From the NCBI GenBank assembly GCA_009760855.2, contig WPIO01000026.1, positions 3,416,501-3,480,500 of the forward strand: a stretch of DNA of 64,000 nt, in the 5' to 3' direction. Shown here piece after piece: positions 10,773 through 35,777 of this stretch. Within the stretch, counting starts at the first letter, position 1; every line of letters starts with the position of its first letter. The notes under the pieces are model-generated. The model was not told where the DNA came from. It saw nothing but the letters and a program-made list of their open reading frames with translations, and did no database searches. This DNA comes from Cristatella mucedo. Its lineage: Eukaryota; Bryozoa; Phylactolaemata; Cristatellidae. The translations under genes and the position numbers were made by a program.

Positions 10773-10881
10773 ATGCCTCTCGGCGGCGCTGCCAAATGTC
10801 CGAAATGCCTCAAGGCCGTATACTACGCCGACGAGACGACGGTCAAGGGCAAGAAGTGGCACAAGAGCTGCCTCACTTGCG
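10773..10881 (+). CDS. LIM gene exon 1: start codon and first half of LIM1
   Basis: The ATG has G at -3 and an in-frame stop 12 codons upstream. The exon encodes 36 residues: MPLGGAAK, then CPKC, VYYADE and KWHKSCLTC. These are the first five zinc ligands of LIM1. It ends one base into the next codon (phase 1) at donor gtgcgt. Confidence 0.9.

Positions 10882-35777: not shown

Follow-up and report, generated by a model that had tools for sequence, protein, structure and literature searches.

The window analyzed here, a 64-kb stretch of DNA (C188:3416501-3480500 of the assembly), contains a gene that we read as a CRP/MLP-derived, LIM-only gene encoding six complete LIM domains followed by a C-terminal half LIM, and we put the probability of this reading at roughly 60%. 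The gene model is our own splice reconstruction from the sequence of the window, and all exons described below are predicted. On the + strand, the gene spans positions 10773 to 35777, stop codon included, and its 14 exons join to 759 residues. The Pfam LIM family (PF00412) matches the protein over six stretches (E 1.6e-68) and is the only family above its cut-off; no PET domain was detected. The splice reconstruction and the Pfam search thus reproduced, to the residue, the original prediction that 14 exons join in phase into a 759-residue protein with six complete LIMs.

Gene model and LIM domains

The 13 introns all have GT-AG boundaries, and their phases alternate between 1 and 2. Up to exon 11, odd-numbered exons encode the first half of a LIM, preceded from exon 3 onward by a linker; up to exon 12, even-numbered exons encode the second half, to which a glycine-rich region is added from exon 4 onward. 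Exon 1 (10773 to 10881) supplies the start codon and the first half of LIM1, with an N terminus like that of a two-LIM CRP gene found on C332 of the same genome, and exon 2 (15804 to 15948) supplies the second half of LIM1 without a GPKGYG tail. LIM2 is encoded by exons 3 (16306 to 16424) and 4 (17993 to 18164), LIM3 by exons 5 (18536 to 18690) and 6 (23247 to 23412), LIM4 by exons 7 (24129 to 24280) and 8 (24599 to 24776), LIM5 by exons 9 (25201 to 25352) and 10 (29180 to 29357), and LIM6 by exons 11 (29638 to 29822) and 12 (33653 to 33830). Exons 5, 7, 9, and 11 additionally carry a repeated linker motif (18543-18587, 24133-24177, 25205-25249, and 29642-29686, respectively). Judged by eye rather than by a score, the donors of exons 4, 8, 9, and 10 and the acceptor of exon 3 are far from consensus. 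The model is least secure where exons 12, 13, and 14 meet, because the phase of exon 11 would also allow a direct join to exon 14.

We infer that the 14 exons are transcribed as one chain. It is highly improbable that they are spread over more than one transcript, such as a two-LIM CRP made from exons 1 to 4 and a separate downstream unit. Exons 1 to 4 do correspond to the whole of the C332 gene, but no stop is present at the end of exon 4, the phase of the exon 4 donor fits exon 5, and the alternation of phases runs unbroken over all 13 introns.

Strict LIM motifs were searched on both strands of the window, which yielded seven first halves (six in the gene and one at 63839) and six second halves. 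In 60 windows simulated with an order-1 Markov chain of the window, no first-half and only three second-half motifs occurred in total, so chance is a poor explanation for the LIM motifs. A glycine-rich tail of the form GPKGYG or GPRGYG follows LIM2 to LIM6, and none is recognizable after LIM1. The expectation that every LIM would bear such a tail therefore fails for LIM1 and holds for five of the six; LIM1 of the C332 gene, in contrast, has a GPKGYG tail. In a search of the PDB, the closest matches were CRP1 (1b8t, E 1.9e-40), CRP2, CRIP1, CRIP2 (2cu8), and MLP, with paxillin, FHL, and PINCH behind them. The CRP-type character of the LIMs, for which a protein search had been proposed as a check, was borne out by these top matches.

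Several other features of the window were noted. Retention of the intron after the phase-2 donors of exons 2, 6, 8, and 12 (15948, 23412, 24776, and 33830) places a stop in frame at the junction and would yield tidy proteins of one, three, four, and six LIMs, respectively. The long introns 1, 5, 9, and 11 (10882-15803, 18691-23246, 25353-29179, and 29823-33652) have dispersed repeats in common, often in opposite orientations, the longest intron-to-intron repeat being 824 bases at 77% identity. LINE-like reverse-transcriptase frames were seen by eye in several parts of the window. Seven MEF2-like sites were found in comparison to 3.21 expected; since 7 of 100 shuffles also reach seven, enrichment is not clear, and these sites were dropped as a sign of muscle expression.

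The C-terminal exons

The original prediction included half a LIM beyond the six, and the C-terminal piece proved to be the second zinc finger only. Exon 13 (33948 to 34153, + strand) encodes a linker where a first zinc finger would be expected, and the CxxC...HxxC pattern of a first finger is absent from it. Exon 14 (35593 to 35777, + strand) encodes the second zinc finger of a LIM, a C-terminal tail, and the stop. The predicted ligands of the half LIM are C698, C701, C719, and C722; C698 falls on the final complete codon of exon 13, where true first-half exons also have their Cys. A second-finger profile scored 13.0 bits on the half LIM, compared with a maximum of 7.4 bits among the 1143 of 2000 shuffles that could be scored, whereas a first-finger profile gave −3.2 bits; in that case 1396 of 2000 shuffles could be scored, and 1346 of these did at least as well. 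When the last 98 residues were searched against the PDB at E up to 10, ten chains were returned. Nine of them are LIM proteins, with PINCH at the top (E 0.0059), and three alignments that were inspected fall on the second zinc finger. When exons 13 and 14 were taken alone, Pfam gave no match with an E value of 1 or less.

Codon use was also considered. Exon 13 is coding-like, with only 9 of 9036 noncoding windows being open and reaching its score, while exon 14 is unremarkable (its score is reached by 127 of 9096 noncoding windows with an open frame). Exons 5 and 7 also score low; because these exons and exon 14 do not stand out, the codon-use score is a weak guide.

Exon 14 may end the protein as a half LIM or may serve as an alternative second half. 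The latter, which we consider a minority possibility though a serious one, would have exon 14 replace exon 12 or follow another first-half exon, giving isoforms with six complete LIMs and differing C termini and leaving exon 13 as a minor exon or no exon. The join of exon 11 to exon 14 is in phase and open, yields 631 residues, and completes the sixth LIM, so that what looks like a half could instead be a second way of ending the protein. The LIM so formed scores 40.3 bits; the first half by itself reaches 24.5, and six shuffled versions of exon 14 give 21.6 to 24.9. Exon 14 is thus LIM-derived. At the split codon, the join of exons 11 and 14 yields DAC, as in exon 10. The join of exons 11 and 12, however, makes the better LIM (56.6 bits), and exon 13, besides its coding-like composition, fits its neighbors in phase at either end and closes with the Cys required by the half LIM.

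A possible precedent for such an arrangement lies in a neighboring gene. A paralogous single-LIM MLP gene begins near the end of the window, with its first coding exon at 63806 to 63923 on the + strand, and continues outside it. One first-half exon is followed there by two different second-half exons, which begin near 2870 and 4872 of L010; each is in phase 1 and completes a full Pfam LIM. Two second halves after a single first half suggest that this neighbor uses alternative endings, which lends some weight to the same arrangement in the larger gene.

Alternatively, the main product might stop after exon 12, at 630 residues, with exons 13 and 14 belonging to a rare transcript or to nothing. 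Retention of intron 12 would place an in-frame TAA directly after exon 12, ATTAAA occurs at 34502 and 34715, and exons 13 and 14 taken separately receive weak support from Pfam and codon use. Such a stop is nothing special, however, as four of the six phase-2 donors (exons 2, 6, 8, and 12) create one; exon 14 is a genuine LIM second half, and the + strand from 28765 to 37530 contains no AATAAA. On balance, a main product of six LIMs only is unlikely. The poly(A) signals do not separate an ending at exon 12 from one at exon 14 and were set aside for that decision. The preferred reading is a gene of 14 exons that ends in a half LIM.

Relatives and growth by cassette duplication

The spliced protein was compared with the 572-Mb assembly in a six-frame search. 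Each of the 14 exons was found once, all at one locus, and the six-LIM locus therefore appears to be single copy. Among the 47 best candidate matches in the genome, no retrocopy of the spliced message was apparent. Beyond the locus and its neighbor, the best match (70% identity) is the C332 gene, which encodes a CRP of 194 residues with two LIMs in Pfam and intron phases 1, 2, 1. The N termini are alike, reading MSLGGSSKCPRC in the C332 protein and MPLGGAAKCPKC in the six-LIM protein. CRIP-like first-half exons were recognized by eye on C676 and C255. No extra LIM exons were found in the 60 kb downstream besides the three exons of the neighbor in L010, and the single LIM motif match in the 30 kb upstream (L017) was taken as chance. 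The LIM-locus pattern was also searched in contigs of other origin: 17 stretches of viral contigs matched and none was confirmed, and the 116 pattern matches in prokaryote contigs gave one locus (L001), which was dismissed as chance given an opposite frame of 776 amino acids on the other strand.

Elsewhere in the genome, several LIM units lie close together at C111:14627001-14634000 (L044); by eye they belong to a different multi-LIM type that resembles paxillin or FHL. A mitochondrial COX1 on C688 (L049) reads well with invertebrate mitochondrial code 5, and further COX1 pieces, perhaps nuclear copies, occur on C166, C83, C549, and C299; ARAGORN with bacterial settings found no tRNA in the two mitochondrial pieces.

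A tree of LIM domains was built from 15 rows, including the C332 LIMs and CRIP1. LIM1 groups with LIM1 of the C332 gene (support 97/99), although it forms a long branch. LIM2 is nearest to LIM2 of the C332 gene at 73% identity, and their fork in the tree is not a supported pair. LIM3, LIM4, and LIM5 group together with support of 93/97, short of the star awarded by the tool, while the only group that unites LIM6 with them is an open one in which CRIP1 is included as well (81/83). Descent from CRP genes is thus supported by the tree with the C332 paralogue and by the common intron phases. The original prediction had proposed a lineage-specific expansion of the muscle LIM protein family; what stood of it was the CRP/MLP descent and growth by duplication, which these relationships among the LIMs support.

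Comparison of the copies with one another bears on their age and on constraint. LIM3 and LIM4 share 63 of 72 residues (pS 0.73, pN 0.076), and LIM4 and LIM5 share 59 of 72 (pS 0.48, pN 0.105); for LIM3 and LIM5, pS is 0.79 and pN is 0.130. Because pN is far below pS among these three LIMs, selection has kept their protein sequences alike, which supports their exons as real coding exons. With pS of at least 0.73 in 12 of the 15 pairs of LIM copies, most of the duplications are old.

The intron phases and the tree lead us to infer the following history. The ancestor would have been an ordinary two-LIM CRP gene with a layout as on C332. A cassette of two exons, the first encoding the first LIM half and the second encoding the second half plus the glycine-rich region, would have been copied in tandem. 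The cassette would have had phase-2 introns on both flanks and a phase-1 intron inside, so that any number of copies keeps the frame. Starting from the C332-like layout, four further complete cassettes and one reduced cassette would give the present gene, the seventh cassette having retained only its second zinc finger after loss of the first. If so, the gene illustrates a route by which a two-LIM protein can grow with its frame intact, through the copying of a two-exon cassette with phase-2 introns at its ends.

Selection is also seen in the linkers. Between complete LIMs they measure 35, 56, 53, 57, and 68 residues, and the one before the half LIM measures 102. The linkers before LIM3, LIM4, LIM5, and LIM6 contain a 15-residue motif, [FY]AEAQ[AV]APL[LQ]R[RK]QS[TS], which ends in RRQS(T) or, in the last copy, RKQSS. 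Across all six pairs of copies, 10 to 15 of the 15 residues are common, and the copies at residues 291 and 401 are identical in 15 of 15 residues and in only 4 of 15 codons. This pattern indicates that selection maintained the motif as the codons diverged. RRQS fits the RRxS consensus of basic-directed kinases such as PKA, and the motif could be phosphorylated as a kinase-controlled switch. No RRxS/T motif is present in the C332 protein.

Predicted function and comparison with known LIM proteins

The protein is probably an actin/alpha-actinin scaffold, that is, a multivalent and flexible cross-linker. It would resemble beads on a string in contractile cells, where each LIM with its glycine-rich region would be a docking site for actin or alpha-actinin and the four RRQS(T)-type linker peptides could be switched by a kinase. 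Muscle expression and binding to actin and alpha-actinin are expected by analogy with characterized relatives. CRP1 bundles actin directly and stabilizes alpha-actinin on the bundles (PMC1318456), and its localization and bundling activity require the glycine-rich motif (PMC3305314). In Drosophila, Mlp84B localizes to the Z-disc, where it has been connected with alpha-actinin and D-titin (PMC7928361). A weak counterpoint, again by analogy, comes from one study in which knock-down of Mlp84B in fly muscle cells had a negligible effect on sarcomere structure (PMC2987826). A bolder proposal, which we advance tentatively and regard as doubtful as a whole, is that LIM, glycine-rich region, and phospho-switch form one repeat unit of a multisite, kinase-tuned actin/Z-disc cross-linker, with a valency raised by duplication of a class 2-2 cassette and a seventh unit reduced to one zinc finger. 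The one-, two-, and six-and-a-half-LIM proteins predicted in this genome form a natural series that could be used to test LIM number and possible linker phosphorylation against the strength of actin/Z-disc cross-linking.

With the CRP/MLP proteins (CSRP1 to CSRP3 and the C332 protein), the predicted protein has in common CRP-type LIMs and, after LIM2 to LIM6, a GPKGYG-type glycine-rich region; with the C332 gene it also has in common the N terminus and corresponding introns of phases 1 and 2. The C332 protein has two LIMs in 194 residues and no RRxS/T, whereas the present gene encodes six and a half LIMs in 759 residues. FHL proteins have four and a half LIMs separated by short linkers, and their half is a single zinc finger at the N terminus. 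The predicted half LIM here is likewise a single zinc finger but is C terminal, and FHL chains are far weaker PDB matches to the protein (best E 1.4e-7). Strain-sensing tandem-LIM proteins of the zyxin and FHL type also have short linkers between LIMs. The LIMs of such strain sensors carry a conserved phenylalanine (PMC12863670). A close-packed strain sensor of this kind was considered and is disfavored because 35 to 68 residues separate the complete LIMs.

Drosophila Mlp84B has five LIMs. It is likewise a CRP-class protein built only of LIMs that exceeds the usual two, but it has one LIM fewer than the present protein and is not known to have a half LIM. The single-LIM MLP neighbor at 63806 resembles the gene in its CRP-class LIM, which is interrupted by a phase-1 intron, and in its glycine-rich region, and it differs in having one LIM and two candidate second-half exons. 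A single-LIM MLP of 106 amino acids, HLMLP, has been described in a tick (PMC7238268). The TES-class protein Etes consists of PET plus six LIMs (PMC3305314), and membership in that class was ruled out by the lack of a PET domain in Pfam. In the open-access papers and passages that the search covered, the only passage on six LIMs was about Etes, and no six-LIM protein of the CRP class was found. Human members of the CRP/MLP class have two LIMs, sometimes one. In a classification of animal LIM proteins, CRPs typically have two LIMs and LIM number serves as a criterion (PMC3305314); with six and a half LIMs, the present protein would therefore be an atypical offshoot of the CRP/MLP class. A CRP relative with six and a half LIMs is thus a lengthened form of a scaffold protein that is already known, and it does not found a protein type of its own.
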